Part shown: positions 5,717-25,074 of the stretch, one piece after another | Numbering within the stretch: position 1 is the stretch's first letter | Layout of the letters: each line of letters opens with the position of its first letter | Source of the DNA: Gammaproteobacteria bacterium | GTDB taxonomy: Bacteria > Pseudomonadota > Gammaproteobacteria > Xanthomonadales > Wenzhouxiangellaceae | Length of the DNA: 36,749 nt | NCBI GenBank assembly: GCA_003560975.1 | Contig: PWJA01000101.1 | Coordinates: forward strand, 1-36,749 | Direction: 5' to 3' | Translations under genes and position numbers: made by a program | The notes under the pieces: model-generated | What the model saw: only the letters and a program-made list of their open reading frames with translations | The model's database searches: none | What the model was told of the DNA's origin: nothing

Positions 5717-5765
5717 GTACAGCTCCTTTTGCGGGTCAGCATACGCCAACCGGAGCAAGCCATTC

Positions 5766-5783
5766 CAGTGACAGAAGTCACTG
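5766..5783. promoter_or_regulatory. Inverted repeat upstream of the S41 protease gene
   Basis: CAGTGAC-AGAA-GTCACTG has perfect 7-bp arms. It lies 50 bases upstream of the leftward protease start codon and 85 bases from the forward glucan promoter. It differs from the LacI-type operator in arm sequence and spacing, so a different regulator would bind. No T-run is adjacent, which argues against a terminator. Confidence 0.4.
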
Positions 5784-5867
5784 TACAGGCCTGCCCCGGA
5801 CGGGACCGCCGACCCCGATCGCCATTCGCGCAGACCCGGTCCTGCACCGCTCAGGGAATGAGAACTG

Positions 5868-5896
5868 CTGACAGCGCTGTCAACATTCACTAGAAT
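5868..5896 (+). promoter_or_regulatory. Promoter with overlapping LacI-type operator, glucan operon
   Basis: The perfect palindrome TGACAGCGCTGTCA (5869-5882) overlaps a -35 box CTGACA (5868-5873). A 17-base spacer leads to TAGAAT (5891-5896). The predicted start of transcription near 5903 leaves a leader of about 93 bases before the phosphorylase. The same layout recurs at 19442-19470 in front of the TonB receptor. A repressor on the palindrome would block the -35 box. Confidence 0.8.
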
Positions 5897-5995
5897 GGAG
5901 ACCCCTTGCCAACCATAACAACGAGACCCGCCGGACCGATGACGGCATCCGCCGGCAGGCACAAGGCCGCGGGGCAACTTCCGGGAGGGAAAGAT

Positions 5996-8900
5996 ATGGA
6001 TGTTCAGCCTGAGACCGCGCTCGAGGATGCAGGCGTGCGCGGTGAGTTCATCGACCTCGACGCAGAGCGCTACTACAAGATCGGCAACGTCGACAAAATG
6101 CCGCCGTTTTTCATCAGCCTGGTCTCCAGCGATGATCACTGGCTGTTCGCCTCCTCGACCGGCGGTTTGACGGCGGGCCGCACCTCTCCGGAGACCGCCC
6201 TGTTTCCGTATGTCCCCGTCGACAAGATTCACGACAGTGCGCTGCACACCGGCAGCAGAACCCTGCTCAGGATTCACACCGCTCAGGGGCCGCAGTACTG
6301 GGAACCCTTTCATCCCGAGCAGATCAGCCGATTCCGGCTGACCCGCAACCTCTACAAGAACACGCTGGGCAACAAGCTTTGTTTCGAAGAGATCCATCAT
6401 GATTTCGGACTGATCTTCCGCTACACCTGGATGACGAGCCGGCGTTTCGGTTTCGTTCGGCACGGCGAGCTGGTCAATACGGGCCGGCACGGGCTGCGGG
6501 TCGAGATGCTGGACGGACTGCAGAACCTGCTGCCGGCGGATACGCCGCTGTTCACGCAGACCAACTTCAGCAACCTGGTTGACGCCTACAAGTGGACGGA
6601 ACTGGACCCGGCCACGGGGCTGGGCATCGTGACGCTGTACTCGACCATCACGGACCGGGCCGAACCCAGTGAATCCCTGAAGGCCAACACCGTGTTCTGT
6701 CTCGGGCTGGACCAGCCGACCATCTTGATCTCCTCTACGCAGATCCCGGATTTTCGACGCGGCGGCGCACTGCGGCGCGAGGCGCACAAGCGCGGGATTC
6801 GCGCTGCCTACCTGGTCAATGCCGAACTCGAACTGCCGGCCGGCGCGAAACGCAGCTGGCGGATCGTCGCCGATACCCAGCAGACCCAAAAGGACGTCGT
6901 TGCCCTGCGCCGGGCGCTTTGCCACCCCGCCAGGCTGGACGAGAAAATCTCCGCGGACGTGGAGGAAGGATCGGACCGGCTGGCGAAGATCCTGGCCAGC
7001 GGAGATGGCTTCCAGGCGACGGCCGAGGAGAACGTGGCCGTGCATCATTACGCCAACGTGCTGTTCAACATCCTCCGCGGCGGCGTCTTTCACGACCAGC
7101 ACCGCGTGACCGCGAAGGACTTCTGCACCACGATCCGTCACTTCAACCGCCCGGTTCATGATCGAAACCAGGCCTTGCTGGACGGACTGCCCGCGCGCGT
7201 GGATTTCCAGGCGCTCAGGGAAAACGTCGCTCGGTCCGGCGATGCGCAGCTGCAGCGTCTGACCGGCGAATACCTGCCCATCACCTTCGGCCGCCGCCAT
7301 GGCGACCCCAGCCGGCCCTGGAACCGGTTCGACATTCGTCTGCGCGACGAGCATGGCGATCAACTGCTTCACTATGCCGGCAACTGGCGCGACATCTTTC
7401 AGAACTGGGAAGCCCTCGCCTTCAGCTTCCCCGAATTCGTCGAGAACATGATCGCCAAGTTCGTCAACGCTTCGACCCTGGATGGGTACAACCCCTACCG
7501 GATCACGAAAACAGGGATCGACTGGGAGGTGGAAGAACCCGACGATCCGTGGAGCTACATCGGTTACTGGGGTGACCATCAGATCATCTACCTGCAAAAA
7601 CTGCTGGAGCTGTCGAGTCGGTTCCACCCGACGCGCCTGCACGAAATGTTGCGGCAAGAGCGGTTCTGCTATGCCAACGTGCCGTACCGCATCAAGCCTT
7701 TCGAGTCCTTGTTGACCGACCCCAAGAACACGGTGCTCTACGACGAGCGCCTGGCCCGGGAGATCGACCGCCGCGTGGCCGACATCGGGGCCGACGGCAA
7801 GCTCGTGCCGGGAGACGACCGGCAGGTCTACCAGGTCACCCTGCTCGAGAAACTGCTGGTGCCCCTGCTGGCCAAACTCGGCAACCTGGTGGTCGACGGC
7901 GGAATCTGGCTCAATACCCAGCGACCGGAATGGAACGACGCCAACAATGCGCTGGTCGGCCACGGGTTGTCGATGGTCACGCTGTGTTACATGCGCCGCT
8001 ACGTGGAGTTCCTGGCCGATCTGATCGCAGACGAAGACGAGCCGTTCACGCTGTCGACCGAGGTCGGGCAGTGGCTGGTCGAGACCGCGCGGGCGCTGGC
8101 GCGACTGGGCGAGAAATCCGGCCGAACCCGGTTCGACGCCGAGACCCGTTACCGGGCCCTTTCCGAACTCGGGCAGGCGGCAAGCCGGTACCGCGCGGCC
8201 GTCTACGAACGCGGCGGCTTTTCGGGCCGGGAGGAACAGTCGGTGGCGGAGGTCCGGCGCATGCTCGCCGATGCGCTGAACGTCATCGACCACAGCATCG
8301 CCAGCAACCAGCGCGACGACGGATTGTTCAATGCCTACAACCTCCTCCACCTCGACGAGAATCGGTGTGAAACCGAGCCGCTGTACCCCATGCTCGAAGG
8401 GCAGGTGGCCGTGCTCAGCTCCGGCGCCATCGCGCCGGCCGCGGCCGTCGGGGTCCTCGAAGCCCTGTTCGAAAGCGAGGTCTATCGTCCGGACCAGCAC
8501 ACCTTCCTGCTCTACCCGGACCGGGCGCTGCCGACCTTTCTGGAAAAAAACCGCATCCGCGCGGAAAAGCTTGCGGGCCTGCCTTTCATTGACCGGATGC
8601 TCGCGCGCGGCGATGAGCGCATCGTGCTGCGCGACGCCGACGACTGCTATCGGTTCAGCGCCGAGTTCAGAAACGTCGGTGACCTGAATGCGCAAATCGA
8701 TCGCCTGGTCCGGGAGTACGGCAGCGAGGCAGAGGCCGCTCGGCTCCCGCTGGCGGCACTGTATGAGGAAGTCTTCAACCACAAGGCATTTACCGGCCGC
8801 TCCGGAACCATGTTTGGTTTCGAGGGGCTGGGCTCGGTGTACTGGCACATGGTGGCCAAGCTGGCGCTGGCCGTGCAGGAGAACTTCTTCCGGGCGCTGG

Positions 8901-9448
8901 AACAAGGCGACCGCGCTACGTCCAGGCGCCTGGGTCGGCTGTATTACCGCGTCCGCGAAGGCCTGGGCTTCAACAAGACGCCGGCCGAGTACGGGGCTTT
9001 TCCTACCGACCCCTACTCGCATACGCCCGGCCACGCCGGGGCGCAGCAACCGGGCATGACCGGTCAGGTCAAGGAAGAAATCCTGACCCGCTTCGGCGAG
9101 CTGGGCGTGCGCGTGGCAAACGGGATCGCAGGTTTCGAGCCGGCCCTGCTGCGGCCGCGCGAATTCGTGGCCGAAACCAGCCGGTTCCGCTACCTGGACG
9201 TCGACGGGGAATGGCAGCACGTCGCCCTACCCGAACACTCCCTGGCATTCACCTGGTGCCAGGTCCCGATCATTTACCGGCTCGACGACACCCAGGCCCC
9301 GAGCCTGACGATCCTGCGCCGTGACGGTAGCCGCGATTCGAGTAGCCGGACCGCCCTGTCCGCGGAATCCAGCGCCGAGCTGTTCCGCCGCAGCGGCACG
9401 ATTCGCCGCCTGGAGCTTTGCTTTCCCCGCGCAGCCTTGTTTTTTTGA
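5996..9448 (+). CDS. GH149-type beta-1,3-oligoglucan phosphorylase
   Basis: This is a large cytosolic enzyme of 1150 residues with no signal peptide. The start is placed at ATG 5996 because GGGAGGGA lies six bases upstream. The TTG at 5906 would sit on the transcription start. The N-terminal third is a beta-sandwich (about 25-330), followed by an alpha/alpha barrel. The motif PEWNDANNALVG puts Asp648 at the place of the catalytic acid of GH94/GH149/GH161 phosphorylases. Length and this motif fit GH149 best; the family is assigned from memory, and GH161 is the main alternative. The reaction would be beta-1,3-oligoglucan plus phosphate giving alpha-glucose-1-phosphate and a shortened chain. Neighbouring GPH, GH3 and GH17 genes support beta-glucan as substrate. 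No phosphoglucomutase gene is in the window. Confidence 0.72.
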   Translation: MDVQPETALEDAGVRGEFIDLDAERYYKIGNVDKMPPFFISLVSSDDHWLFASSTGGLTAGRTSPETALFPYVPVDKIHDSALHTGSRTLLRIHTAQGPQYWEPFHPEQISRFRLTRNLYKNTLGNKLCFEEIHHDFGLIFRYTWMTSRRFGFVRHGELVNTGRHGLRVEMLDGLQNLLPADTPLFTQTNFSNLVDAYKWTELDPATGLGIVTLYSTITDRAEPSESLKANTVFCLGLDQPTILISSTQIPDFRRGGALRREAHKRGIRAAYLVNAELELPAGAKRSWRIVADTQQTQKDVVALRRALCHPARLDEKISADVEEGSDRLAKILASGDGFQATAEENVAVHHYANVLFNILRGGVFHDQHRVTAKDFCTTIRHFNRPVHDRNQALLDGLPARVDFQALRENVARSGDAQLQRLTGEYLPITFGRRHGDPSRPWNRFDIRLRDEHGDQLLHYAGNWRDIFQNWEALAFSFPEFVENMIAKFVNASTLDGYNPYRITKTGIDWEVEEPDDPWSYIGYWGDHQIIYLQKLLELSSRFHPTRLHEMLRQERFCYANVPYRIKPFESLLTDPKNTVLYDERLAREIDRRVADIGADGKLVPGDDRQVYQVTLLEKLLVPLLAKLGNLVVDGGIWLNTQRPEWNDANNALVGHGLSMVTLCYMRRYVEFLADLIADEDEPFTLSTEVGQWLVETARALARLGEKSGRTRFDAETRYRALSELGQAASRYRAAVYERGGFSGREEQSVAEVRRMLADALNVIDHSIASNQRDDGLFNAYNLLHLDENRCETEPLYPMLEGQVAVLSSGAIAPAAAVGVLEALFESEVYRPDQHTFLLYPDRALPTFLEKNRIRAEKLAGLPFIDRMLARGDERIVLRDADDCYRFSAEFRNVGDLNAQIDRLVREYGSEAEAARLPLAALYEEVFNHKAFTGRSGTMFGFEGLGSVYWHMVAKLALAVQENFFRALEQGDRATSRRLGRLYYRVREGLGFNKTPAEYGAFPTDPYSHTPGHAGAQQPGMTGQVKEEILTRFGELGVRVANGIAGFEPALLRPREFVAETSRFRYLDVDGEWQHVALPEHSLAFTWCQVPIIYRLDDTQAPSLTILRRDGSRDSSSRTALSAESSAELFRRSGTIRRLELCFPRAALFF

Positions 9449-9553: not shown

Positions 9554-11032
9554 ATGCCAGCTCCCGTTCATCAGACCGCAGCCGTTGATCGCATTCCCTT
9601 TCAGCAGAAGCTGATCTACGGGGCCGGCGCCTTCGTCAACAACCTGCTGGCCGGCGCGATCGGCGGCATGATGATCGTGCTCAACCTGGCCTACGGCATG
9701 AACCCGGCCCTGGTCGGCCTGCTCGGCGCGCTGCCCCGTCTGACCGACGCGATCACCGATCCGGTCATGGGCTACATCTCGGACAACACCCGTTCGCGCT
9801 GGGGCCGGAGGCGTCCCTATATCTTTCTGGGCGCGATCATTGCCGGGGTGATGTTCATGCTGCTGTGGCAGCTGCCCCCGGGCAAGAGCGAGACCTGGTA
9901 TTTCTGGTACTTCCTGGCCGGCTCGTTCCTGTTCTATCTCGGCTACACCATTTTCGCCACGCCCTGGGTCGCCCTGGGCTACGAGCTCACGCCCGACTAC
10001 CACGAGCGCACCCGGCTGATGGGGGTTCAGAACTTCATCGGCCAATCGGTCTACCTGGTCACGCCGTGGCTGTTGCTGATGATGCAGCACGAGGGCTGGT
10101 TCGACGGCATGGCCCAGGGCGCTGCCGGACTCGCCGTGATCATCGGACTGATCACCATCCTGGTCGGCATCGTCCCGGCGATTTTCCTGCGCGAGCGATT
10201 CCAGGACATCGCCGCCCGGGCGCAGGAATCCGACGAGCCTGTCTCCGCCAGCATGCCCGGCATCGTGGCGCGCAACCTCAGGGAGTTCTTCGCCGGCTTT
10301 CTCACCACGCTTCGCTCCCGGCCGTTCCTGAAGCTGTGCGCAGCAACCTTCCTGGTGTTCAACGGCTTCATCATGGTCGCCGCATTCCAGTTCTACGTCA
10401 TCATCTACTACGTGTTCGGCGGCGATACGGTCGAGGGCGCCCGCTTTGCCGGCTACGCCGGCACCCTGCAGTCGCTGTCCACTTTCGGAGTGATCGTGCT
10501 GGTGACCTGGATGGGCACGCGGATCGGCAAACGGAACGCGTTTTTCGTCGCCATCGCCGTGTCAACGGCAGGGTACGTGCTCAAGTGGTTCTGCTACACC
10601 CCCGACAATCCCTGGCTGGTTCTGCTGCCGGCGCCGCTGATTGCCTTCGGCCTGGGCGGGCTGTTCACCCTGATGCCCTCGATGATTGCCGATGTCGTCG
10701 ATGCCGACGAGCTGGATACGCATGAACGGCGCGAGGGCATGTACGGTTCGATCTTCTGGTGGGTGGTGAAGCTGGGCATGGCCGTCGCCATTGCCGTCGG
10801 CGGGTTGCTCCTCAATGCCACCGGCTTCGACGTGGCCCTGGGCGGTGAGCAAAGCGCCGTCAGCATCCAGATGATGCGTGCCTTCGATGCCTTCCTGCCG
10901 GCCCTGGCGTCGTTGCTGGCAATCTGGGCCATAGCCACTTTCTCGATCGATGAAAGCAAGGCCTACGCAATCCGGGCGGAACTGGAACGCCGGCGCGGTC
11001 GACCGGACCCTTCACTGCCCGAACCCGCTTGA
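9554..11032 (+). CDS. GPH-family glycoside:cation symporter
   Basis: This inner-membrane carrier of 492 residues has about twelve membrane helices. It shows the glycoside-pentoside-hexuronide (melibiose permease-type) signature DAITDPVMGYISDNTRSRWGRRRPYI at about residues 66-92. Another family feature is the aromatic-rich ATPWVALGYELTPDYHERTRL loop at about 138-158. Such carriers bring glucosides or short oligosaccharides into the cytosol with H+ or Na+. Here the expected cargo is beta-glucan oligomers released outside the cytosol, to be used by the cytosolic phosphorylase and GH3 enzyme. The gene lies 105 bases after the phosphorylase, behind the second operator, and 15 bases before the GH3 gene. 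No clear ribosome binding site precedes the ATG. Confidence 0.9.
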   Translation: MPAPVHQTAAVDRIPFQQKLIYGAGAFVNNLLAGAIGGMMIVLNLAYGMNPALVGLLGALPRLTDAITDPVMGYISDNTRSRWGRRRPYIFLGAIIAGVMFMLLWQLPPGKSETWYFWYFLAGSFLFYLGYTIFATPWVALGYELTPDYHERTRLMGVQNFIGQSVYLVTPWLLLMMQHEGWFDGMAQGAAGLAVIIGLITILVGIVPAIFLRERFQDIAARAQESDEPVSASMPGIVARNLREFFAGFLTTLRSRPFLKLCAATFLVFNGFIMVAAFQFYVIIYYVFGGDTVEGARFAGYAGTLQSLSTFGVIVLVTWMGTRIGKRNAFFVAIAVSTAGYVLKWFCYTPDNPWLVLLPAPLIAFGLGGLFTLMPSMIADVVDADELDTHERREGMYGSIFWWVVKLGMAVAIAVGGLLLNATGFDVALGGEQSAVSIQMMRAFDAFLPALASLLAIWAIATFSIDESKAYAIRAELERRRGRPDPSLPEPA

Positions 11033-11047: not shown

Positions 11048-13276
11048 ATGGATCCCTCCCATCAGCGACCCGCAGCCGACCCGCCCAAAGCGCTCGATAT
11101 CCAGGATCGGGTCGCCGCCCTGGTTGCGCGCATGTCGCTGGACGACAAGATCGGGCAGATGGCGCTGGGCCAGCCGGGCACGGCTTCGCCGCCTGAAACT
11201 CTGGGCGACGCGATCCGCGGCGGGCGGATCGGCGCGGTGGTCAACGTGGTGGAGCGCGCTGCGATCAACGAACTTCAGCGCATCGCGGTCGAGGAAAGTC
11301 CGCACGGCATTCCCTTGCTGGTGGGCCGTGACGTCATCCATGGCTTCCAGACGATCCTGCCGATCCCGCTTGGGCAGGCGGCGAGCTGGAATCCGGAGTT
11401 GGTCCGCGCCGGGGCCCGGGTTGCCGCCGAAGAGGCTGCCCGGAGCGGGATCAACTGGACCTTCGCCCCCATGATCGACATCTCGCGGGACCCGCGCTGG
11501 GGCCGCATCGCCGAAAGCCTCGGCGAAGACGTGTTTCTGACCGGCCGGCTGGCCATGGCCATGGTCGAGGGCTTCCAGGGCCGGTCCCTGGCGGATGCCG
11601 GATCGATCGCCGCCTGCGCCAAGCATTTTGCCGGCTATGGCGCCGCCGAAAGCGGCCGCGACTACGCCACCACCAACATCCCCGACAACGAACTGCACAA
11701 CGTCTACCTGCCGCCGTTCAGGGCCGCCGTCGAGGGCGGGGTCGCCAGCCTGATGACCTCGTTCAGCGACCTGGACGGCGTCCCGGCCACGGCCCACGCC
11801 GGTCTGCTGCGCGACGTGCTGCGCGGGCAGTGGTCCTTCGATGGCATCGTGGTCAGCGACTGGGAGTCGATTCCGCAGCTGTCGGTCCACGGCCTGACCG
11901 CGAATGACCGGGAAGCCGCGATCGCCGCCGCCAACGCCGGGGTCGAGGTGGAAATGGCCAGTGCGACCTACGCGCGTCATCTCGCCGACGCCGTGCGCTC
12001 GGGCCGGGTCGACCTCGAGACCATCGATGCGGCCGTGGCCCGGATTCTGACGCTGAAGTTCGAACTGGGGCTGTTCGAGGCCCCGTACACGCAGGCCACC
12101 GACAACCCGCAGGCCAAGCGCGAAACCGCGCTGCAGGTCGCCCGCCAGGCCGCACTGCAAAGCATGGTTCTCCTCAAGAACCACAACGATCTGCTGCCGC
12201 TGGATAGCCAACGGATGGAACGACTGGCGATCCTCGGCCCCCTGGCCGATGCGGCCTACGAACAGCTCGGCACCTGGATTTTCGACGGCGAGGCGGATCG
12301 CAGCGTGAGCGCTCTGGCCGGCATCCGGGCGCGGCTCGGCTCGGATACCGAAATCATCCACCTTCCCGTCCTGGAGACCAGCCGCAGCCGCGAATTCGTC
12401 GACATCGATGCTGCCCTAGCTGCGGTGCGCGCGGCCGATGCCGCGATCCTGTTCCTGGGCGAGGAATCCATTCTGTCCGGAGAGGCGCACTCGCGCGCGA
12501 ACATCGATTTGCCCGGGGCCCAGGCCAAGCTGGTCCAGCGCATCCGCGCAAGCGGCAAACCCGTGGTCGCGGTCATCCTGGCCGGCCGACCGCTGACGCT
12601 TGCAAACATCGTCGACCAGGTCGACGCCATGCTGTACGCCTGGCATCCGGGCAGCATGGGCGGACCTGCCATCGCCGACCTGCTGTTCGGTATCGAGTCA
12701 CCGTCGGGCAAGCTGCCGGTCACGTTCCCGCGCGCGGTCGGCCAGATTCCGCTCTATTACAACGCCAAAAACACCGGCAAGCCGCCGCGTCCCGACACCG
12801 TCACCCGGATCGACGAGATCCCGGTCCAGGCGCCACAGACCTCGCTCGGCATGTCCGCCTTCCACCTCGATATCGATCACACCCCGCTGTTCGCCTTCGG
12901 CCACGGCCTGTCCTACGCGCGCTTCGAGTACTCGGACCTGCGCATCCGCCCGCCGCAGATCGCGCCGGGTGAGTGCGTGCGCATCAGCGTCGAACTGCGC
13001 AACGCGGGACGCCGCGCTGCTGAGGAAATCGCCCAACTCTACGTGCGCGATCCGGTCGCCAGCATCACGCGTCCGGTGCGCGAGCTCAAGGGCTTCCAGC
13101 GGGTTCGGGTGGCGCCCGGCCAGGCGGTTCGGATCGAATTCCGGCTGCACGCCGACGATCTGAGGTTCTATCGTCGTCCGAGCGGCTGGATCCTGGAGCC
13201 CGGCCGTTTCCAGGTGTGGGTGGGCGGTGACTCGAACGCAGACCTGGCCGGAGAATTTCAGCTGATCGATGCCTGA
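11048..13276 (+). CDS. GH3 beta-glucosidase, probably cytosolic
   Basis: This 742-residue enzyme has the BglX-type domain order: a GH3 TIM barrel (about 20-340), an alpha/beta sandwich (about 380-620) and a C-terminal fibronectin III-like domain (about 650-735, with ELKGFQRVRVAPG). KHFAGYG at 192-198 and IVVSDW at 267-272 mark the barrel, with Asp271 as the expected nucleophile. In this family the acid/base lies in the second domain. Unlike BglX there is no signal peptide, which points to hydrolysis of imported oligosaccharides to glucose. GAGG lies just before the ATG, although spacing is tight. It is the third gene of the operon, 15 bases after the symporter and 16 before the GH17 gene (ATG at 13293). 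Confidence 0.93.
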   Translation: MDPSHQRPAADPPKALDIQDRVAALVARMSLDDKIGQMALGQPGTASPPETLGDAIRGGRIGAVVNVVERAAINELQRIAVEESPHGIPLLVGRDVIHGFQTILPIPLGQAASWNPELVRAGARVAAEEAARSGINWTFAPMIDISRDPRWGRIAESLGEDVFLTGRLAMAMVEGFQGRSLADAGSIAACAKHFAGYGAAESGRDYATTNIPDNELHNVYLPPFRAAVEGGVASLMTSFSDLDGVPATAHAGLLRDVLRGQWSFDGIVVSDWESIPQLSVHGLTANDREAAIAAANAGVEVEMASATYARHLADAVRSGRVDLETIDAAVARILTLKFELGLFEAPYTQATDNPQAKRETALQVARQAALQSMVLLKNHNDLLPLDSQRMERLAILGPLADAAYEQLGTWIFDGEADRSVSALAGIRARLGSDTEIIHLPVLETSRSREFVDIDAALAAVRAADAAILFLGEESILSGEAHSRANIDLPGAQAKLVQRIRASGKPVVAVILAGRPLTLANIVDQVDAMLYAWHPGSMGGPAIADLLFGIESPSGKLPVTFPRAVGQIPLYYNAKNTGKPPRPDTVTRIDEIPVQAPQTSLGMSAFHLDIDHTPLFAFGHGLSYARFEYSDLRIRPPQIAPGECVRISVELRNAGRRAAEEIAQLYVRDPVASITRPVRELKGFQRVRVAPGQAVRIEFRLHADDLRFYRRPSGWILEPGRFQVWVGGDSNADLAGEFQLIDA

Positions 13277-13292
13277 CAGGAGGATCCCGAAC

Positions 13293-15524
13293 ATGCCCCA
13301 GCTATCCACGTTGCTTGCCCTGATGATGATCATGATCATGCTTTCCACTGCCGCACCGGCGGCTCCGATCGCGGTGGAAATCGTGCGCGGCGCGGACGGC
13401 TACGAACTGCTGCGCGGCGGCCAGCCCTACGAGATCCGGGGCGCCGGCATGGTGCACGACGATCTGGCCGCCTTCGCGGCCCGCGGCGGAAACTCGATTC
13501 GGACCTGGACGACGCGCTCCGATGAACTCGATCTACCGGGGCTGCTCGACCAGGCCCATGCCCTGGGCGTGAGCGTGGCGCTGAATCTGCCGATGGTGCC
13601 GGAACGACATGGCTTCGACTACGACGACGAGGAAGCGGTGGCCGAGCAGCTCGAAGCGATGCGCCGGGACGTTCTGAACTATCGCGACCACCCCGCACTG
13701 CTGTTCTGGATCATCGGCAACGAGCTCAATCACAGCTACCGCAATCCGCGCGTCTGGGACGCGGTCAACGACGTGGCCCGGATGATCGGCACGCTCGATC
13801 CCCATCACCCCTCGACCACCGCCATTGCCGGGATGCGCGAGGAGGTGGTCAGGGAAGTGCTGGCGCGGGCGCCGGAGCTCGATTTTCTGAGCTTCCAGGC
13901 GTATGGCACCCTGTTCGGGCTGCCCGACACCCTCGACCGGCTTGGTTTCGACCAGCCGTTCATGGTCACCGAGTGGGGCACGATCGGCTGGTGGGAAATG
14001 GAATCGACCACCTGGGGGGCGCCGGTCGAGTTGACCAGCTCGGAAAAGGCCGATGTCTTTCTGCGCGGCTACCGCGAGGTTCTGGACCCTCTGCGGGCAC
14101 AACTGATCGGCTCGTACGCATTCTTCTGGGGCCAGAAGCAGGAACGAACACCCACCTGGTTCGGCCTGCTCACCCCGGAAGGCGCGCAGACCGAGGCGGT
14201 CGACGTACTGGAGTACATGTGGACCGGCGAGCGGCCGGAGCGCACGGCCCCGCGCGTCGACGCACTGCAGCTGGACGGCCGCAGCGCTCGTGACAACGTG
14301 ATCGTGCTCAGCGGGCAGTCCTACCCGGCCCACTTTGTCGTTCGCCAGGACGACAGGGAAAACCTGAGCTACCACTGGGACGTCAAACCCGAAAGCGATG
14401 CCACCGAGGTCGGCGGCGACTACGAAACCTACATTCCCGGGCTGGACGGTGCCATCACCAGCGCCCCCGGACCGCACGCGAGCGTGCGCATCGACGAGCG
14501 CGGCGCCTATCGCCTGTTCGCCCGCGTCGACGACGGCGATGGGCGAGCCGGTCACGCCAACGTCCCGTTTCTGGTCGAAGACGGCTTTGTTCAGTCGCCG
14601 GACCACCGGGTCGCCGGCGAAGTCATGGCGGTGGCGTATTCCGGCTTCCGTTCCGGGCAACATCCCGACCGCGGCGACGGTGCCGTCAACCCCAGCCGTG
14701 AGGAAATTCTCGAAGATCTGAACATCCTGGTCGAACACGGCTTTCGCCTGATCCGGGTCTACGATGCCGGCGCCAACTCGCAGGCCGTGCTGGAACTGAT
14801 CCGCGAACAGGATCTGCCGATTCAGGTCATGCTGGGACTGTGGCTGCGCGCCGAGCTGAGCAATCACGAGGGCTGTCCGTGGCTGGACGAGCCGATTCCC
14901 GAAGACGAACTGGCGGCCAACCGCATCGAAAACGAACGCGAGATCGAGCGCGGCATCGAACTGGCGCGCGCATTCGAAGACGTCGTGGTGTCGGTGAACG
15001 TCGGCAACGAGGCGCTGGTGGACTGGACCGATCACCTGGTGCCGCTGACCCGGGTGATCGACTTTGTCCGGCAGGTCCGCGGCTCCATCTCCCAGTCGGT
15101 GACGGTGGCCGAGAACTACGAGTGGTGGATCCGCGAGGGTGCGCCGCTGGCCGCCGAGCTCGACTTCATTGGCGTGCATACCTACCCGGTCTGGGAGGAG
15201 CGGGACATCGACGAGGGGCTGTCCTACACCGTGGAAAATCTGATGGCGGTGCGTCAGGCCCTGCCGGATGTGCCGATGGCGGTGCTGGAGGCCGGCTGGG
15301 CCACGACCGCCAGCGAGTTTGGCGATCGCGCCAGCGAGGCGGCGCAGGCGCGCTACTTCCGCGAAATCGAGCGGTGGGCCCAGCTTTCCAATACGACGAT
15401 CTTCTTTTTCTCCGCCTTCGACGAACCGTGGAAGGGCGATCCCGACGATCCGCTCGGCGCCGAGAAACACTGGGGCCTGTTCTTCGAGGACCGCAGCCCC
15501 AAAAGCATCATGCGCCGGGACTGA
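13293..15524 (+). CDS. Secreted two-barrel glycosidase: GH2-like TIM barrel plus GH17
   Basis: This protein has 743 residues. The hydrophobic start (LSTLLALMMIMIMLSTAAPA) is a signal peptide. Domain 1 (about 28-312) is a GH2/GH5-like barrel with FWIIGNEL (Glu144) and VTEWG (Glu227), spaced as acid/base and nucleophile. A beta-rich linker domain (about 315-435) follows. Domain 2 (about 443-743) is GH17-like, with VNVGNEAL (Glu573) and AVLEAGW (Glu666) as the expected catalytic pair. GH17 enzymes cut beta-1,3-glucans or transfer beta-1,3-glucosyl chains. Start choice is uncertain: AGGAGG nine bases upstream favours 13293, but the ATG at 13269 (overlapping the end of GH3) would add DRR, the positive charges this signal peptide otherwise lacks. 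The 3' end overlaps the convergent regulator gene by 17 bases. Confidence 0.85.
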   Translation: MPQLSTLLALMMIMIMLSTAAPAAPIAVEIVRGADGYELLRGGQPYEIRGAGMVHDDLAAFAARGGNSIRTWTTRSDELDLPGLLDQAHALGVSVALNLPMVPERHGFDYDDEEAVAEQLEAMRRDVLNYRDHPALLFWIIGNELNHSYRNPRVWDAVNDVARMIGTLDPHHPSTTAIAGMREEVVREVLARAPELDFLSFQAYGTLFGLPDTLDRLGFDQPFMVTEWGTIGWWEMESTTWGAPVELTSSEKADVFLRGYREVLDPLRAQLIGSYAFFWGQKQERTPTWFGLLTPEGAQTEAVDVLEYMWTGERPERTAPRVDALQLDGRSARDNVIVLSGQSYPAHFVVRQDDRENLSYHWDVKPESDATEVGGDYETYIPGLDGAITSAPGPHASVRIDERGAYRLFARVDDGDGRAGHANVPFLVEDGFVQSPDHRVAGEVMAVAYSGFRSGQHPDRGDGAVNPSREEILEDLNILVEHGFRLIRVYDAGANSQAVLELIREQDLPIQVMLGLWLRAELSNHEGCPWLDEPIPEDELAANRIENEREIERGIELARAFEDVVVSVNVGNEALVDWTDHLVPLTRVIDFVRQVRGSISQSVTVAENYEWWIREGAPLAAELDFIGVHTYPVWEERDIDEGLSYTVENLMAVRQALPDVPMAVLEAGWATTASEFGDRASEAAQARYFREIERWAQLSNTTIFFFSAFDEPWKGDPDDPLGAEKHWGLFFEDRSPKSIMRRD

Positions 15525-16572
15525 GACCGACCGCCGACGCATCCGGCGCCGGTCCGGTGGTGCCGCGAATCCGCAAGGCGCCCGGGACGATCACACGGCT
15601 CTTGCGCGAGCCGTTCTCCTCGGTGCCCTTGACCAGCATCAACGCCGCCTGTTCGGCCATGGCCGAGAACGGCTGCCGGATCGTGGTCAGGGGCGGATGG
15701 ACCTGCTCGGCCAGGGTGATGTCGTCGCACCCGGCCACGGACAGCTGCTCCGGAATGCGGATGCCCAGTTCATCGGCCGCCCGCATCACGCCCACCGCCA
15801 TGTCGTCGTTGGCCGCGAAGATCGCCCCGGGCCGGCGCTTGCGCCGAAGCAGTTTCAGGGCGGCCTCGCGACCGGAGTCGAAGGAATTGTCGCCTTCGGC
15901 GACGAGGCGCTGCGAAAAGGGGACGCCGCTGTCTTTCAGGCCGTCCTGGTAGCCAAGGAAGCGCAAACCCACCGCCTTGTGGCGCGGATGACCGCGGACG
16001 AAGGCAATTTCACGGTGGCCGCAGGAAACCAAATAGCGGGTCATTTCCGCGGCAAACTCCCGGTCGTTGGTGGCGACAACACGGTCGCCGACCCGCTTGT
16101 GCCCGGGCGAGAGACGCACCAGCGGTGTGCCGGTGGCGTTGATCGTCCGAACGATCCGCGCCACGCCCGACAGCGGCGCCGCCAGCACGATTCCCGCCGG
16201 TCTGGCGCGGCGGATCAGGGCCTTGAGATCTTCCTCGATATCGGAACGCTGATCGCTGCAAGGATGGATCAGGAGTTCGTATCCATGGCTGCGACAGACC
16301 CGCAGGACCCCCTCCTGCATGCGGATGATGTAGCCCGCCGACGGCAATCGATAGACACTGGGATCGTCGTAGACCAGGCAGATCAGATGGGCGCGTGCGC
16401 TGGCCAGGTCCCGGGCCGACTGGTTCGGCGCATAATCGAGCTCGGCAATCGCGGCCTCGACCCGGGCCCGAGTGGCGTCCCGTACGCCCCCCTCGCGGTT
16501 GACCACGCGGGACACGGTCTTGATGGAAACACCCGCCAGCCCGGCGACGTCGTTGATCGTCGAATTACCCAT
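15508..16572 (-). CDS. LacI-family transcriptional regulator of the glucan locus
   Basis: This is a 354-residue regulator starting at ATG 16572. The open frame extends 27 codons further upstream, but LacI proteins begin directly at the helix-turn-helix. Residues 4-25 (STINDVAGLAGVSIKTVSRV) are the DNA-reading helices and NQSARDLASAR (50-60) the hinge. The rest is a periplasmic-binding-protein-like sugar sensor with AIFAANDDMAVGVMRA and LSVAGCDDI. It lies between the two target units and runs opposite to the GH operon, with tail-to-tail overlap. Sites TGACA(A/G)CGCT(G/A)TCA near 5869, 9446 and 19443 are palindromes of the kind this family binds, so it is the obvious candidate. No such site is seen before its own start. 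The inducer is probably a beta-glucan breakdown product or glucose (inference). Confidence 0.93.
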   Translation of the reverse strand: MGNSTINDVAGLAGVSIKTVSRVVNREGGVRDATRARVEAAIAELDYAPNQSARDLASARAHLICLVYDDPSVYRLPSAGYIIRMQEGVLRVCRSHGYELLIHPCSDQRSDIEEDLKALIRRARPAGIVLAAPLSGVARIVRTINATGTPLVRLSPGHKRVGDRVVATNDREFAAEMTRYLVSCGHREIAFVRGHPRHKAVGLRFLGYQDGLKDSGVPFSQRLVAEGDNSFDSGREAALKLLRRKRRPGAIFAANDDMAVGVMRAADELGIRIPEQLSVAGCDDITLAEQVHPPLTTIRQPFSAMAEQAALMLVKGTEENGSRKSRVIVPGALRIRGTTGPAPDASAVGLSPGA

Positions 16573-16742
16573 GCGGCTGAAGTGTACCCGAGCTTCCCGA
16601 ATCGGCAAACTCTTTCGACGGCCGGCGTGATTTCCCGCTCCGGCACAGCACAACCGATCGCGCCGGGACCCTGAGACCCGGGCACGAGCGGGTATGTGAT
16701 ACTGCCGCCTGAAGGCTCATCGGCAATCAATCGGAGAAGGTC

Positions 16743-17746: not shown

Positions 17747-17769
17747 GCGAAGCGAGGTCATCGCTTCGC
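17747..17769. terminator. Hairpin between convergent genes, possible bidirectional terminator
   Basis: GCGAAGCGA and TCGCTTCGC form a perfect 9-bp stem around GGTCA. It lies nine bases after the aldo/keto reductase stop and covers the stop codon of the opposing sugar porter gene. No T-run follows on either strand, so termination strength is doubtful. Confidence 0.4.
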
Positions 17770-19392
17770 GATCGTCAGCTCGACCTCCAGTTCTTCCAGC
17801 GACCGGTTCTTCGTCTCCGGCACCACCTTCCAGATGAACAGCAACCCGATCGCTGCGAACAGCCCGTAGATCAGAAACGTGATGCTGTTGCCCAGCGTTG
17901 CCATCTCCCACGGGAAGACCAGCTGGACCAGGAAGCTCACCCCCGAGTTGATGAACCCGGCAAAGGAAATCGCCAGTCCGCGAACACGCAGCGGGAACAG
18001 CTCGGAAAACATCACCCACATCACCGGCCCGATGGAAACGGCGAACGAGGCCACGAAGAACAGAATGCCGAACAGGATCAGGCCGGGGTTGATGTCTATG
18101 GCCGTTGCAATGATGTCGGATTCGTGGCTCCGGGCATTTTCTTCGCCCAGCGTTTCCACCAGCGCTTGCCGGAAACTGACATCATTCGAGTAGGAGATGC
18201 CCTGCATGTCGGACAAGGCAACAACCACGGCCGCTGGAAGCTCGAGCGTTCGGATACCGTCGTCCGACAACTCGTACGTGGCCGACCCGAAACCATAAGC
18301 CAGCAGCATCATCGACAGTGCGATCCCGGTCATGCCGCCCAGCAACAAGGGGCGACGGCCCAGCTTGTCGATCAAGAGCATGGCAACCACGGTGAATGCC
18401 AGATTGGTCAGGCCAACCAGGACGGCCTGCATGAAGGCGGCATCGGCACCAATGCCCGACTGCTCGAAAATCATGGGTGCATAGAAAAACACCGCGTTGA
18501 TTCCCGTGATCTGTTGCAGCACGGCCAGCACCACGCCGGTCACCAGCACCAGGCGCAGCGCCGGATGAAAGAGATCCGCAAGTGCCAGCTTTTCCCGCCC
18601 TGCATCGGCTTTCAGATTTCGTTGGATATCGGCAATCTGTCGATCCGTTTCCGCCGGCTCGAAAATTCGATTCAGCGTGACCGCCGCTTGCTCATGCATT
18701 CCTTTCATGATCAGCCAGCGCGGACTTTGCGGTACCCGGGTCAGACCGATGAGAAAGAAGAAGGCCGGCACGGTTTCCACGGCCAGCATCCAGCGCCAGG
18801 CGTGAGCATCCATCAGGAGAACCTGGACCCATGCCGCGTCCGACTGTGACCACTGCAGGATGAGGTAATTGCTGAAGAAGGCGGCCGAGATACCCACCAC
18901 GATATTGAGCTGGTTGAGGCTGACCAGCCGGCCCCGGCTTGCCGGCGGTGCAATTTCGGCAATGTACATGGGCGCGACGATGAGCGATGCCCCAACGCCC
19001 AGACCGCCGACCATGCGGGCGATCACGAAGCTCAAAAAGTCCGGCGCCAGAGCGGAACCGATGGCGGACACCGCATACAGGATGGCGGCCACCATCAGAA
19101 TGGCACGGCGCCCGAATCGGTCGCTGAGGGGTCCGGCAGTGAGCATGGCCAGGGTGGCAGTCAGGGTGAGCGAACCGACAGCCCATCCGACCTGCAGGCT
19201 GGTCAATCCGAATTCCGGACCGATGAAGCGCACCACGCCGGATATGACCGATGCATCAAAGCCCATCAGAAAACCGCCGAGGGCAACAATCAGCGCAACA
19301 CGAACAACATAAAAGCGCTTGTCATTCACAGTCCCGAGTTCTCCATCGCTCGTTGTATCCGTCCGCGAGAACGAATACTTGGTGCATTGCAC
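17758..19392 (-). CDS. MFS sugar porter (hexose transporter)
   Basis: This 544-residue inner-membrane protein has twelve predicted helices and the sugar porter signatures: GPLSDRFGRRAIL (loop 2-3), VPQSPRWLI (before the central loop), QQITGINAVFFYAP (helix 7) and PETKNRSLEELE (C-terminus). A polar insertion of roughly 60 residues (about 385-445, ELSDDGIRT... to ESDIIATAID) separates two of the late helices, as in some proteobacterial members. The probable cargo is glucose or another hexose by H+ symport, feeding the glucokinase encoded downstream. The GTG start at 19392 has AAGGA seven bases upstream. A GTG 21 codons further in is the alternative. It is divergent from the TonB receptor, and the operator at 19442 lies between them and could control both. 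Confidence 0.9.
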   Translation of the reverse strand: MQCTKYSFSRTDTTSDGELGTVNDKRFYVVRVALIVALGGFLMGFDASVISGVVRFIGPEFGLTSLQVGWAVGSLTLTATLAMLTAGPLSDRFGRRAILMVAAILYAVSAIGSALAPDFLSFVIARMVGGLGVGASLIVAPMYIAEIAPPASRGRLVSLNQLNIVVGISAAFFSNYLILQWSQSDAAWVQVLLMDAHAWRWMLAVETVPAFFFLIGLTRVPQSPRWLIMKGMHEQAAVTLNRIFEPAETDRQIADIQRNLKADAGREKLALADLFHPALRLVLVTGVVLAVLQQITGINAVFFYAPMIFEQSGIGADAAFMQAVLVGLTNLAFTVVAMLLIDKLGRRPLLLGGMTGIALSMMLLAYGFGSATYELSDDGIRTLELPAAVVVALSDMQGISYSNDVSFRQALVETLGEENARSHESDIIATAIDINPGLILFGILFFVASFAVSIGPVMWVMFSELFPLRVRGLAISFAGFINSGVSFLVQLVFPWEMATLGNSITFLIYGLFAAIGLLFIWKVVPETKNRSLEELEVELTIAKR

Positions 19393-19600: not shown

Positions 19601-22600
19601 ATGCATCCACATACATACCGCAAGACTCCGCTGGCTGCGGCAGTCGCCCTGGCGCTAGGCACGTGCTTCCTTTCGCCGCTTCACGCCAAGCAGGCCGACG
19701 AGACCGTAGAAGAGGAAGAAGGCACTCAGGAAACATCGGACTATTTCGTCGATGATCGGATTCAGGTCGTCGGCGTCAGGGCAAGCCTGATGCGATCGAT
19801 GGACCGCAAGCGCGACGCGATCGGTCTGGTCGACGCCATCACCGCCGAAGACATCGGCAAGTTTCCCGATCAGAACCTGGCCGAAGCGCTGCAGCGCATT
19901 CCCGGCATCTCGATCAGCCGCACCAATAACGAAGGCTCGCAGATCACCGTGCGCGGCTTCGGACCGGAATTCAACCTGGTCACTTTCAACGGCCGATCCA
20001 TGCCGACGCAGGGCGGACGGTCCTTTGATTTCGGCGACATCGCTTCTACCGGAATCACCGCGGTCGAGGTCATCAAGACCGGCCGCGCCTCGCTGCCGAC
20101 CGGCGGCATCGGCGCCACGGTCAACATCATCACGCCCAAGCCGCTGGAAAACCCCGGCATGCGCGGCGCCCTGATCGGCAAGGCGGTCCACGAGACCTCG
20201 GCCTCGGACGGCGACCTGGGCAACCTGAACGAAATCACGCCGGAAATCGCCGGCATCTACAGCAACACCTTCGCCAACGACACCTTCGGCATCGCGATCA
20301 CGGGCTCCTACGAGGAGCGTGACAACCGCGAGGAATTCGCCGCCGTCGACAGCTGGATTCCGAACTACGGGCTGGAGGGCGGCACCGTCAACGACAACAA
20401 TCAGCGCGCTGACGGCATCTGGTGGCATCCGCAGGATGCAGGCTACGGTTTTGCCGACATCTCGCGCACCCGCACCAACGGCCAGTTGACCCTGCAGTGG
20501 GCGCCGAGCAATCGGGTCCGAATGACGCTGGACTACACTTATTCCGAACTGGAGTTCGAAGCCGACCGCAACAGTTTCGGTGTCTGGTTCGCCAATCCCA
20601 ACGTCTCTGCGACCATCAACGAGCGCGGCACCGTCACCGACGTCCGCCAGGTCGGCGGCGACTACGCGATCAACGTGGCGCGCGACAACACCGTCAAGAC
20701 CAATGATTCCCTGGGCTTCAACGTCGACTTCCGCGCCACCGACAACCTGTTTTTGAACTTCGACGTTCACGATTCCAGCTCCCGGCTCAAGGGCGGTGGG
20801 CTGGGCGATGGCCGTCCGGGCAGCTCGGCCAACCTGATCGTAGGCAACACTTTCTGCGACTGGTGCGGGTTCGTTCCGGGCGCCGGCCCGTTCACGGCCA
20901 GTATCGACGAGAAGTTCGCCTCCTACTCGAGCGGCGGCATTCCGATCTGGGGGGCAACCTTCCGTGACACCGAAACCGGTGAACCCCTGGATTTCCTGCG
21001 CCGCAGCGACATGGGGTCGCTGTTCGGACAGGCCTTCGATCTGCGCAACCGAAACGACATTCTCCAGGTGCAGCTGGACGGAGCCTGGAGCAACCCCGGC
21101 AGCGGGGCCATCACGGGGCTTGATTTCGGCCTCAGTTACACCGAGCAGGAGTTCGTCAATCGCAACGCGTTCTCCGGCCTGCTCCCGGGCGGGTTCTGGC
21201 TGACTTCGGCCCAGTACTGGCCGGACGAGCTGTGGGAGGACGCCAGATTCCAGGGCTTGCTGTCGGACTTTTCCGGCGGCGGCGACTTCCCGCTGGACCG
21301 CTATTTCGTGCTGCCGTTCAACACCATCGTCGATATCTACGAGTCGCTGGACTGCGTCTCGACCGGCGACCCGCTGTGCAACGACGTGTACTGGCCTTCC
21401 TGGGGCCCGGAGTTCCAGGATCCATCGGGTTCGCGCGGCTTTTTCTGGCCCGGTCCGCTCGGCAACGCCAGCGGCGGCGGCGTGCAGGAAGACATCACCG
21501 CCGCCTTCTTCCAGCTGAACATCCAGGATCGGATCGCCGGCCTGCCGTTCAACGCTCGGGTCGGGCTGCGCATCGAAGATACCGAGGTCACGTCTTCGGG
21601 CGATGAAGTGCCGGCCGAGGCCGTGGTCTGGGTGGGCGGCGACGAATTCGTGACCGAATTCGGCGAGTCGACCTTCGTCACCTCCAAAAACAGCAATACG
21701 GAATTCCTGCCCAGCCTCGATTTCGATCTGACCTGGCGCGACGACCTGATTTCCAGATTCTCCTACAGCCGCACGTTGGCCCGGCCGCCGATCGGGGCCT
21801 TGAGCCCGGTGCGTTCGTTCGTCGGCAACCCCAACCCGCAGAATCGCGAAGCCAGTTCCGGCAACCCCGGCCTGCTGCCCTACGTCTCCGACAACTTCGA
21901 CCTGTCGCTGGAGTGGTACTACGGCCCCGGCAGCTACGCCTCGGTCGCCTACTTCCGCAAGCATGTCGACAACTTCCTGGTCGGAACCACGGTGCGCGAA
22001 ACCTTCGACGGGCTGCTGGATCCGTTCCGCGGCGCCCAGGCCGAGCTGGCCCGCGAGCAGCTGGCGGCCGAGGGCATTCCGCTGAGCAACGCCAACATCT
22101 TCGCCCGGATCAACGAAAACCTGGGCCGGCCGTCCACCACGCCGGTTCGCGCCGAGCCCGGCGACCCGCTGATCGAGTGGAATGTCTCGACCACCGACAA
22201 CGCCGAGCAAGGTCGCATCTGGGGCTGGGAGTTCCAGGTCCAGCACATGTTTGGCTACACCGGCTTCGGTGTACAGGCCAACGCCACCCTGGTCAGCGGC
22301 GATGTAAAGGTCGACCGCAACGTGATCGATCGGCAGTTCGCGCTGCCCGGGCTGAGCGACTCGTACAACCTGATCGGCTTCTACGAGAACGAGCACATCT
22401 CGGCGCGCCTGGCCTGGAACTGGCGCGACGAGTTCCTGGCCGGCTTCGATCAGTTCGACTCGCCGATCTTCGTTGAAGACTACGGTCAGCTCGACGTCAA
22501 CCTGTCCTGGTTTGCCCGACCGAACCTGACCATCTTCCTTGAAGGGCTCAACGTGACCCAGGAAACGCAGCGGGTCTACGTGCGTTATCCCGAGCAACTG

Positions 22601-22657
22601 ATTCGCGGCAACCAGTATGGCGCGCGCTACAATATCGGCGCGCGGTGGACCTTCTGA
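19601..22657 (+). CDS. TonB-dependent outer-membrane receptor (SusC-like glycan importer type)
   Basis: This outer-membrane protein has 1018 residues. Residues 1-29 form a signal peptide ending LHA. A TonB-box-like IQVVGV lies at about 54-59. A plug domain (about 70-180) carries AITAEDIGKFPDQNLAEALQRIPGISISR and VRGFGPEFNLVTFNGR, and a long beta-barrel ends in a terminal Phe. This plug wording is typical of the large receptors that Xanthomonadales, Alteromonadales and Caulobacter place in carbohydrate-use loci. Two Cys pairs (FCDWCG and DCVSTGDPLCND) lie in extended loops and may be disulfides. The ATG follows a GAGAGGGAGAG purine tract. Expression should be relieved by glucan through the operator-promoter at 19442. 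An intrinsic terminator lies just after the stop, and an ExbBD-like pair at 34698 could energise it. Confidence 0.95.
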   Translation: MHPHTYRKTPLAAAVALALGTCFLSPLHAKQADETVEEEEGTQETSDYFVDDRIQVVGVRASLMRSMDRKRDAIGLVDAITAEDIGKFPDQNLAEALQRIPGISISRTNNEGSQITVRGFGPEFNLVTFNGRSMPTQGGRSFDFGDIASTGITAVEVIKTGRASLPTGGIGATVNIITPKPLENPGMRGALIGKAVHETSASDGDLGNLNEITPEIAGIYSNTFANDTFGIAITGSYEERDNREEFAAVDSWIPNYGLEGGTVNDNNQRADGIWWHPQDAGYGFADISRTRTNGQLTLQWAPSNRVRMTLDYTYSELEFEADRNSFGVWFANPNVSATINERGTVTDVRQVGGDYAINVARDNTVKTNDSLGFNVDFRATDNLFLNFDVHDSSSRLKGGGLGDGRPGSSANLIVGNTFCDWCGFVPGAGPFTASIDEKFASYSSGGIPIWGATFRDTETGEPLDFLRRSDMGSLFGQAFDLRNRNDILQVQLDGAWSNPGSGAITGLDFGLSYTEQEFVNRNAFSGLLPGGFWLTSAQYWPDELWEDARFQGLLSDFSGGGDFPLDRYFVLPFNTIVDIYESLDCVSTGDPLCNDVYWPSWGPEFQDPSGSRGFFWPGPLGNASGGGVQEDITAAFFQLNIQDRIAGLPFNARVGLRIEDTEVTSSGDEVPAEAVVWVGGDEFVTEFGESTFVTSKNSNTEFLPSLDFDLTWRDDLISRFSYSRTLARPPIGALSPVRSFVGNPNPQNREASSGNPGLLPYVSDNFDLSLEWYYGPGSYASVAYFRKHVDNFLVGTTVRETFDGLLDPFRGAQAELAREQLAAEGIPLSNANIFARINENLGRPSTTPVRAEPGDPLIEWNVSTTDNAEQGRIWGWEFQVQHMFGYTGFGVQANATLVSGDVKVDRNVIDRQFALPGLSDSYNLIGFYENEHISARLAWNWRDEFLAGFDQFDSPIFVEDYGQLDVNLSWFARPNLTIFLEGLNVTQETQRVYVRYPEQLIRGNQYGARYNIGARWTF

Positions 22658-22681
22658 TCAGCGCCAGCGATGGCTGATGCC

Positions 22682-22711
22682 AAGCCGCTGGCAACAGCGG
22701 CTTGTTTTTTT
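22682..22711 (+). terminator. Intrinsic terminator/attenuator between receptor and halogenase
   Basis: AAGCCGCT and AGCGGCTT form a perfect 8-bp stem (22682-22689, 22696-22703) around GGCAAC. G and TTTTTTT follow (22705-22711). The T-run ends at 22711 and the preferred halogenase ATG begins at 22712. It should stop most receptor transcripts and set a lower level for the downstream genes. Confidence 0.85.
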
Positions 22712-24307: not shown

Positions 24308-24328
24308 ACCCAAAGACGGAAATCCGCG

Positions 24329-25069
24329 ATGGCGCGCCACGAACTGCTCGACAACGTCACCCACAAGGACCTGCGGGTCGACCGGCGCTTCAGCCCCGGG
24401 CATGGCTATGACCATCAGCTGGCCCGGGTCTTTCCGACCGAGCTGGGCGTCCTGCAGGCCGAGTACCCGCTGTTTTTCGCCCGCAACGCCGACAGCGGTC
24501 ACCATGACCTGGTCGCCCTGCTGGGCTTTGAGGCCTCCGAGAATCTCTATCTCGGCGATGCGCAGTGGCTGGCCCGCACTCTGCCGCTGAGCGTCGAGCG
24601 CCAACCCTTTCTGATCGGCTTTCAGGAACGCAGCGAGCACGGGGTACCCACCTCCGTGCCGGTGGTGCATGTCGACCTGGACCATCCGGCCATCTGCACA
24701 TCCGGGGGCGAGCCGGTGTTCCTGCCCCACGGCGGCGAGAGTCCGCTGCTCGAGCGGGTCAACGCGGTGCTGGCCGCGGTTCATGAAGGGCATCAGAGCA
24801 GCGCGGAATTTTCGCGCCTGCTGACCGGTCTGGACCTGATCGAGTCGCTCAACCTGGAAGTCGAGTTCGACAACGGCATCCGCCACAGCCTGCAGGGGCT
24901 GTCCACCATCAACGAAGACCGGCTGAGGCAGCTCAACCGCGACAGCCTGGCCGTGCTGCACGAAAAGGGCTACCTGCAGCACATCTACATGATGCTGGCT
25001 TCCATGCCCCAGCTGGCCGTGCTGATCGAGCGCAAGAATCGGCGGCTGGCCGAAGCCGGGGAGGCATAG
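24329..25069 (+). CDS. SapC family protein
   Basis: This 246-residue soluble protein has no signal peptide. It matches the SapC family in its order of motifs: VFPTELGVLQAEYPLFF near the start, FEASENLYL, then QPFLIGFQ and a late LDLIESLNLEVEFDNG, and a C-terminal LHEKGYLQHIYMMLASM. SapC was named for a link to a surface-array protein in Campylobacter. In proteobacterial glycan loci it travels with halogenases and TonB receptors, and its function there is not known. It lies 21 bases after halogenase 1 and 5 bases before the cupin-like gene, so all are likely co-expressed. A weak GGAA precedes the ATG. No catalytic residues can be suggested. Confidence 0.85.
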   Translation: MARHELLDNVTHKDLRVDRRFSPGHGYDHQLARVFPTELGVLQAEYPLFFARNADSGHHDLVALLGFEASENLYLGDAQWLARTLPLSVERQPFLIGFQERSEHGVPTSVPVVHVDLDHPAICTSGGEPVFLPHGGESPLLERVNAVLAAVHEGHQSSAEFSRLLTGLDLIESLNLEVEFDNGIRHSLQGLSTINEDRLRQLNRDSLAVLHEKGYLQHIYMMLASMPQLAVLIERKNRRLAEAGEA

Positions 25070-25074
25070 CGCCC

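Follow-up and report, generated by a model that had tools for sequence, protein, structure and literature searches.

A putative exported GH158-GH17 fusion protein pairs two known beta-1,3-glucanase families in Gammaproteobacteria

Laminarin-type beta-1,3-glucan is a major algal carbon store, and how branching restricts its degradation is a question of practical importance. In family GH158, BuGH158 has been reported to be active on beta-1,3-glucan, with a pocket accepting a branch; residues N136, E137 and E220 are essential, and a C-terminal Ig-like domain packs on the barrel and extends over the cleft (PMC7157763). BuGH158 has been called strict in one study and broad in another, the latter describing a close variant with a broad range that includes curdlan and lichenin (PMC7553746). 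The assayed GH158 enzymes are reported to be endo-acting on beta-1,3-glucans, one of them also on mixed-linkage lichenin (PMC7157763, PMC7553746). A metagenome paper groups GH158 with xylan-active families, the available passages of that paper holding no assay (PMC13228077).

Characterised bacterial GH17 enzymes include endo-laminarinases and transferases. FbGH17A is reported to prefer debranched laminarin, modelling having suggested that it requires three or more unbranched units (PMC6246565); MlGH17A reportedly tolerates branches (PMC13188888). In the transferase RmBgt17A, Tyr102, Trp157 and Glu158 are reported to be essential for transfer, replacement of the Tyr by Ala abolishing it (PMC11005184). 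The endo-laminarinase MlGH17A is reported to carry a Val at the position of this Tyr, and a long beta3-alpha3 loop has been described as a mark of bacterial endo-laminarinases (PMC13188888). Among Gammaproteobacteria, descriptions of laminarin loci from Woeseiaceae (PMC12175321) and SAR92 (PMC10108472) mention both GH17 and GH158.

We analysed a stretch of 36,749 nucleotides from a member of the Wenzhouxiangellaceae (hereafter the window), in which one open frame on the + strand starts at 13269 or 13293 and ends with the stop codon at 15524. An AGGAGG box of the ribosome-binding type (13278 to 13283, +), whose function is presumed, precedes the ATG at 13293 by 9 nt, and for this reason we prefer that start, which a first-pass annotation had used, to 13269. 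The resulting gene (13293 to 15524, +) would encode 743 amino acids; it is defined by this frame, by matches to GH158 and GH17 and by 10 complete homologous fusions. Residues are numbered here from the ATG at 13269, and subtracting 8 gives the numbering from 13293. Long antisense open reading frames over the gene (13533-15542 and others) were regarded as a side effect of GC-rich coding sequence.

The protein was modelled with AlphaFold2, using an input alignment of 59 sequences (the window protein and part of the 80 loci described below). The model (mean pLDDT 90.6, pTM 0.85) contains two TIM barrels separated by a beta domain, and structural matches were found for each half, in agreement with the first-pass annotation, which had described two complete TIM barrels in one chain. 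The catalytic Glu pairs that it had read at 144/227 and 573/666 also stood: they are E152/E235 and E581/E674 in our numbering, sit in the motifs GNE, TEWG, VGNEAL and LEAGWA, and are invariant in the aligned rows. Both barrels are intact and are probably active. We found neither a failure of the two halves to be conserved together nor a catalytically dead GH17-associated module, the latter being ruled out by the invariance of the four Glu.

The first barrel (13374 to 14234, +) had been annotated as GH2-like. A phmmer search against solved structures instead matched residues 31-437, approximately, to GH158(Pro) (9oro, E 2.5e-79) and BuGH158 (6pal, E 1.1e-63), a similarity to characterised members that covers the full domain. 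Superposition of the model with VIA-align gave a Z of 50.5 to 9p26 (rmsd 1.6, 392 aligned residues, residues 31-437) and of 46.4 to 6pal. The model has the TIM barrel followed by a C-terminal Ig-like domain that is typical of the family (392-394 residues aligned), and the alignment to BuGH158 shows the arrangement of clan GH-A, with an Asn-Glu acid/base after beta4 and a Glu nucleophile after beta7. The putative acid/base E152 (E144 from 13293; 13722 to 13724, +) lies in the GNE motif and corresponds to BuGH158 E137, and the putative nucleophile E235 (E227 from 13293; 13971 to 13973, +) lies in the TEWG motif and corresponds to E220; N151, E152 and E235 are invariant in all 29 aligned rows with a letter there. 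The beta-rich domain (14250 to 14579, +), previously seen as a joint between the barrels, falls inside the alignments to 9oro and 6pal, which reach residue 437, and agrees with the description of BuGH158: it is GH158's own Ig-like domain. By sequence and model, the N-terminal barrel with its beta-rich domain is a complete predicted GH158 endo-beta-glucanase, not a GH2 enzyme.

The Pfam model GH2_C scored 18.3 bits with the whole protein and 19.3 bits with its N-terminal half, below the cut-off of 21, and no GH2 N-terminal domain was present among the Pfam matches of the window protein. GH2_C alone cannot separate GH158 from GH2, since L029, a stand-alone GH158 relative, exceeds the same cut-off (36.6 versus 21 bits), which also makes the GH2-like guess understandable. 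These observations bear on the idea that the first barrel is a debranching enzyme or acts on another linkage, as a beta-1,6-active enzyme or a GH2-type exo-glycosidase. The weak GH2_C match (18.3 bits), weak NCBIfam GalA/GalB matches and the score of L029 could be read in its favour, but the GH158 match runs over the full length including the Ig-like domain, GH2_C stays under 21 bits, and the GH158 members assayed so far are reported to be endo-acting. We regard this idea as highly improbable. The earlier proposal that this barrel removes branches or cuts another linkage thus found no support, the assayed GH158 enzymes being endo-acting on beta-1,3-glucans and none being described as debranching in the passages concerned (PMC7157763, PMC7553746).

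The second barrel (14601 to 15521, +) had been assigned to GH17, and this assignment was borne out. By phmmer its nearest matches were FbGH17A (6fcg, E 3.7e-25) and the transferase RmBgt17A (4wtp, E 1.3e-11), both characterised members, and VIA-align placed the model on 6fcg_A with a Z of 31.9 (rmsd 2.6 over 289 residues, 26% identity) and on 4wtp with a Z of 27.8. The domain is a (beta/alpha)8 barrel with a catalytic Glu pair, namely the putative acid/base E581 (E573 from 13293; 15009 to 15011, +) and the putative nucleophile E674 (E666 from 13293; 15288 to 15290, +), each present in 41/41 rows with a letter at that position. The Pfam GH17 score was below the cut-off of 28.2 (21.3 bits for the whole protein, 22.5 for the C-terminal half); this cut-off was also missed by the stand-alone L018 and L053 and by the b-type gene of L037, and was passed by the c-type gene of L037. 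GH53 was considered for the second barrel and rejected, the Pfam score of the C-terminal half being 11.2 bits against a cut-off of 24. The stand-alone relative L018 lies narrowly above the GH53 cut-off (25.5 versus 24) while below that of GH17, and every PDB structure that it matches belongs to GH17, 8akp among them being named only as a catalytic domain.

Does this GH17 half hydrolyse or transfer? At the position of the transfer-essential Tyr of RmBgt17A, as read from the alignment, all 41 rows have Val (Val584 here). Trp642-Glu643, equivalent to Trp157-Glu158 of RmBgt17A, is likewise invariant (41/41). With Val in place of Tyr, the domain lacks the full set of Tyr, Trp and Glu aglycone residues that marks the GH17 transglycosylase subgroup (RmBgt17A, MlGH17B). 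In the model and the alignment the beta3-alpha3 loop is long (residues 525-544), and in the alignment the beta1-alpha1 loop is longer than that of FbGH17A. Our best guess from these residues is that the GH17 half is a hydrolase, more likely an endo-acting one. The subsite is mixed, with Val present and Trp-Glu kept, so the endo mode is uncertain and exo action or transfer has to be weighed. An exo-acting or transferring GH17 half would trim the ends of, or rebuild, oligosaccharides released by an endo-acting GH158. It would account for the invariant Trp-Glu, which is kept in RmBgt17A, MlGH17B and the exo-acting FbGH17B, and for the longer beta1-alpha1 loop; it is at odds, however, with the replacement of the Tyr by Val in every row, with the long beta3-alpha3 loop reported for bacterial endo-laminarinases and with the endo enzyme FbGH17A being the nearest in sequence and fold. 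We consider it unlikely.

The window domain belongs to a GH17 clade whose aligned members (30 rows) are 56-73% identical to it and which includes the stand-alone proteins of L018, L019, L026, L036, L057, L060, L074 and others. Its records are titled Gammaproteobacteria, Planctomycetota, Acidobacteriota, Gemmatimonadota, Myxococcota or Ignavibacteriota. The locus thereby draws attention to a clade of which we know no assayed or characterised member. Three loci (L008, L037 and L054) each hold three different GH17 genes, of types a, b and c; in L037, type c is nearest to the transferase RmBgt17A and type b to FbGH17A.

To place the fusion among its relatives, genome contigs were scanned; 152 relatives were found, and the best 80 loci were kept and classed by tblastn. 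Among these 80, the window apart, 10 complete fusions were present (L002-L011), three fused frames were cut by a contig end (L012-L014, L013 just inside GH17) and one fusion (L016) was interrupted by a frame change near masked bases. Adjacent but separate GH158 and GH17 genes occurred in three loci, L052 and L053 keeping the order of the fusion and L029 reversing it; L042 had both genes further apart, and L031 had a remnant of the Ig domain only, before GH17. Within the stretch covered, GH158 was alone in 14 of the 80 loci and GH17 in 47, some of them cut by contig ends. By title, the complete fusions come from Wenzhouxiangella (3), Woeseiaceae (4) and records named only as Gammaproteobacteria (3). 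The recurrence of the full-length architecture in 10 other complete loci from separate records rules out chance and assembly artefact, and the two halves are conserved together, as the first-pass annotation would lead one to expect.

Within the family of the window, 9/43 genomes had a clear GH158 match, with a complete fused frame in 6 and a frame cut by a contig end in 3; a tenth match, in G034, was weak (2.0e-4). In the genus, 8/30 genomes matched the GH17 half and 22/30 were without a match. Five of the eight had the full domain, always fused, two were cut by contig ends, and in the last, G001, the match was to a remote paralogue, the fused frame of this genome being truncated just inside GH17. 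In the class sample, 46/369 genomes matched the query somewhere; among the matches listed for these 369 genomes (at most two candidates per genome), none besides the window's own spanned both halves.

The junction from the end of the Ig domain to the YSGFR motif measures 16-25 residues, and 20 in 8 of the 10 chains measured (L010 excluded). A similar stretch precedes YSGFR in stand-alone GH17 proteins; the N-termini of these are mostly signal-peptide-like by eye. In six pairs with the window, dN/dS was 0.15-0.35 for the GH158 barrel, 0.27-0.50 for the Ig domain and 0.10-0.17 for GH17. Both barrels are under purifying selection.

The history of the fusion was followed in trees of each half. In the GH158 tree, the 15 fused rows fell in one starred set of 17, together with the stand-alone L015 and L017. 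The GH17 tree was built after 17 of 73 rows had been dropped (8 b-type, 8 far and one copy of the window's own domain); its 12 fused rows need at least four changes, and a single clade was not rejected (p-AU 0.265, with L054 and L042, cut by contig ends, uncounted). One fusion followed by losses would be the simplest reading of these trees. In L031, the remnant of the GH158 Ig domain (8809-9243, with some masked bases inside) stands before a stand-alone GH17, as though left by a decayed GH158 gene.

The window protein starts with a probable signal peptide (13293 to 13370, +; end approximate), a hydrophobic stretch with a modelled helix at 11-25 and without a lipobox pattern. This pattern is absent from 6/15 fused N-termini (window, L002, L003, L012-L014), and a lipobox-like pattern is present in the other 9/15 (L004-L011, L016). 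From the hydrophobic N-terminus of the window protein and the lipobox pattern of the nine, we infer that the fusion protein is probably exported. The enzyme of the window's subgroup would probably be released into the periplasm or outside the cell, and those bearing a lipobox are probably lipid-anchored; one lineage seems to have lost, or gained, a lipid anchor.

The neighbouring genes have predicted roles in sugar uptake and catabolism. Upstream lie a GPH/MFS_2 sugar symporter gene (9554 to 11032, +; Pfam MFS_2, E 4.1e-66) and a GH3 beta-glucosidase gene of the BglX type (11048 to 13276, +; Pfam GH3, E 4.1e-72; NCBIfam BglX, 673.6 bits, cut-off 666); by eye, no signal peptide was seen at the N-terminus of this GH3. 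Downstream, a convergent gene for a LacI-family regulator (15508 to 16653, -; Pfam LacI and Peripla_BP_3) overlaps the 3' end of the fusion gene by 17 nt and is followed by a sugar transporter gene (MFS Sugar_tr; 17758 to 19392, -; Pfam E 2.6e-104) and a TonB-dependent receptor gene (TonB-Xanth-Caul; 19601 to 22657, +; NCBIfam TIGR01782, 613 bits, cut-off 310). Further on, the window holds G6PD, 6-phosphogluconolactonase (6PGL), Entner-Doudoroff dehydratase (EDD) and glucokinase. Together, the genes for transport, GH3 and glucose catabolism fit a locus for taking up and breaking down a glucose polymer. GH3 upstream and LacI downstream were found in 10/10 complete fused loci; in L008, a sugar transporter separates GH3 from the fusion, with LacI about 4 kb away. 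The GPH gene is on the opposite strand in L007-L011. Elsewhere in the window's own genome, there was one GH16 match and, by the Pfam model, no second GH17.

Other genes of the window recur near related loci. Immediately after the TonB receptor come SapC and cupin_8, flanked by two tryptophan-halogenase-like genes (22670-27605); in L004 and L005 the receptor is followed by the same set, and in L002, which is cut, by part of it. A gene for a tricorn-type S41 peptidase occupies 4286-9220 (-), and relatives 33-41% identical are found near the GH17 locus in L007-L011, L016, L029, L031 and others. The open reading frame 5906-9448 (+) had no Pfam match, and the overlapping frame on the - strand encodes this peptidase.

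Gene order also bears on whether the fusion serves a purpose. The two activities could be as proposed below and the fusion itself neutral, a read-through between two genes lying side by side, with one signal peptide saved. Such an origin would predict neighbouring unfused genes in the order of the fusion, as seen in L052 and L053, and GH17 alone lies directly behind GH3 in L019, L023, L044 and L048. (L018 has GH3, then a sugar transporter, then GH17 alone.) Against a neutral fusion, the fused state occurs in two lineages and is unsplit in all 9 family genomes with GH158, 3 of which are cut by contig ends. We find a neutral fusion somewhat doubtful, though a serious contender, and persistence of the fusion does not by itself demonstrate cooperation.

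The reading we favour, and hold to be likely, is that the gene encodes a probably exported bicatalytic beta-1,3-glucanase, a complete GH158 fused to a complete bacterial GH17 hydrolase with a division of labour between them. It would probably serve in digesting an algal storage sugar such as laminarin. Both retaining barrels would hydrolyse beta-1,3-glucan, the GH158 cutting at a -1 sugar that bears a single beta-1,6-glucose and the GH17 cutting unbranched stretches. Because BuGH158 and FbGH17A differ in branch tolerance, labour would be divided by branch tolerance and not by linkage; with GH158 tolerating and GH17 avoiding branches, one chain could handle both kinds of stretch and yield short oligosaccharides. 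The GPH symporter would then import these to a cytoplasmic GH3 beta-glucosidase, and the glucose released would pass through glucokinase to the Entner-Doudoroff genes of the same window, with the TonB receptor serving uptake and the LacI protein control. Several points count against the favoured reading: the 26% identity to FbGH17A, the Pfam GH17 score below cut-off, the GH53 score of L018, the retention of Trp-Glu, found on the transferase/exo side, the branch tolerance reported for MlGH17A, the conflicting accounts of BuGH158 as strict or broad, and the grouping of GH158 with xylan-active families.

A more far-reaching version, which we put forward tentatively and think rather unlikely, has the two barrels working as one rigid machine on a single branched chain, GH158 opening the branched stretches and GH17 at once cutting the unbranched ones, with the GH17 clade and its mixed endo/transferase subsites forming a distinct functional subgroup. 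Whichever applies, a natural chain in which one glucanase probably tolerates branches and the other probably avoids them, together with relatives that carry the two domains apart, offers a test of whether fusion brings a benefit.

Compared with known systems, the N-terminal half resembles GH158(Pro) (9oro/9p26) and BuGH158 (6pal) in its barrel, Ig-like domain and catalytic Glu pair, with 38% and 33% identity, respectively, over 392-394 aligned residues, whereas the solved GH158 chains (404-430 residues) are without a second catalytic barrel. The C-terminal half shares the GH17 fold, the catalytic pair and the long beta3-alpha3 loop with FbGH17A (Formosa, 6fcg), MlGH17A, FaGH17A and VbGH17A. 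It differs from FbGH17A, to which it is 26% identical, by loop insertions and by Trp-Glu where FbGH17A has His-Asp; in MlGH17A, His and Asn are reported there (PMC13188888). No GH158 partner for FbGH17A-type enzymes is reported in the literature passages covered. The first-pass view of GH17 as a domain found mostly by itself or beside binding modules was too narrow, chains of GH17 with MFS and with GT2 having been published (PMC6246565, PMC10108472, PMC11005184). Like those FbGH17B-type and Glt-type fusions, the present protein joins GH17 to another activity of glucan metabolism in one chain, but the partner there is a transporter or a glycosyltransferase and here a second glycoside hydrolase. 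The passages on the Woeseiaceae and SAR92 laminarin loci mention no GH158-GH17 chain, and neither such a chain nor an assay of one was met with in the passages of the GH158 literature, although supplements, CAZy or subscription papers may list the architecture. The kinds of enzyme are known; the fusion is real and conserved, and this way of joining two known beta-1,3-glucanase families is apparently new and undescribed.
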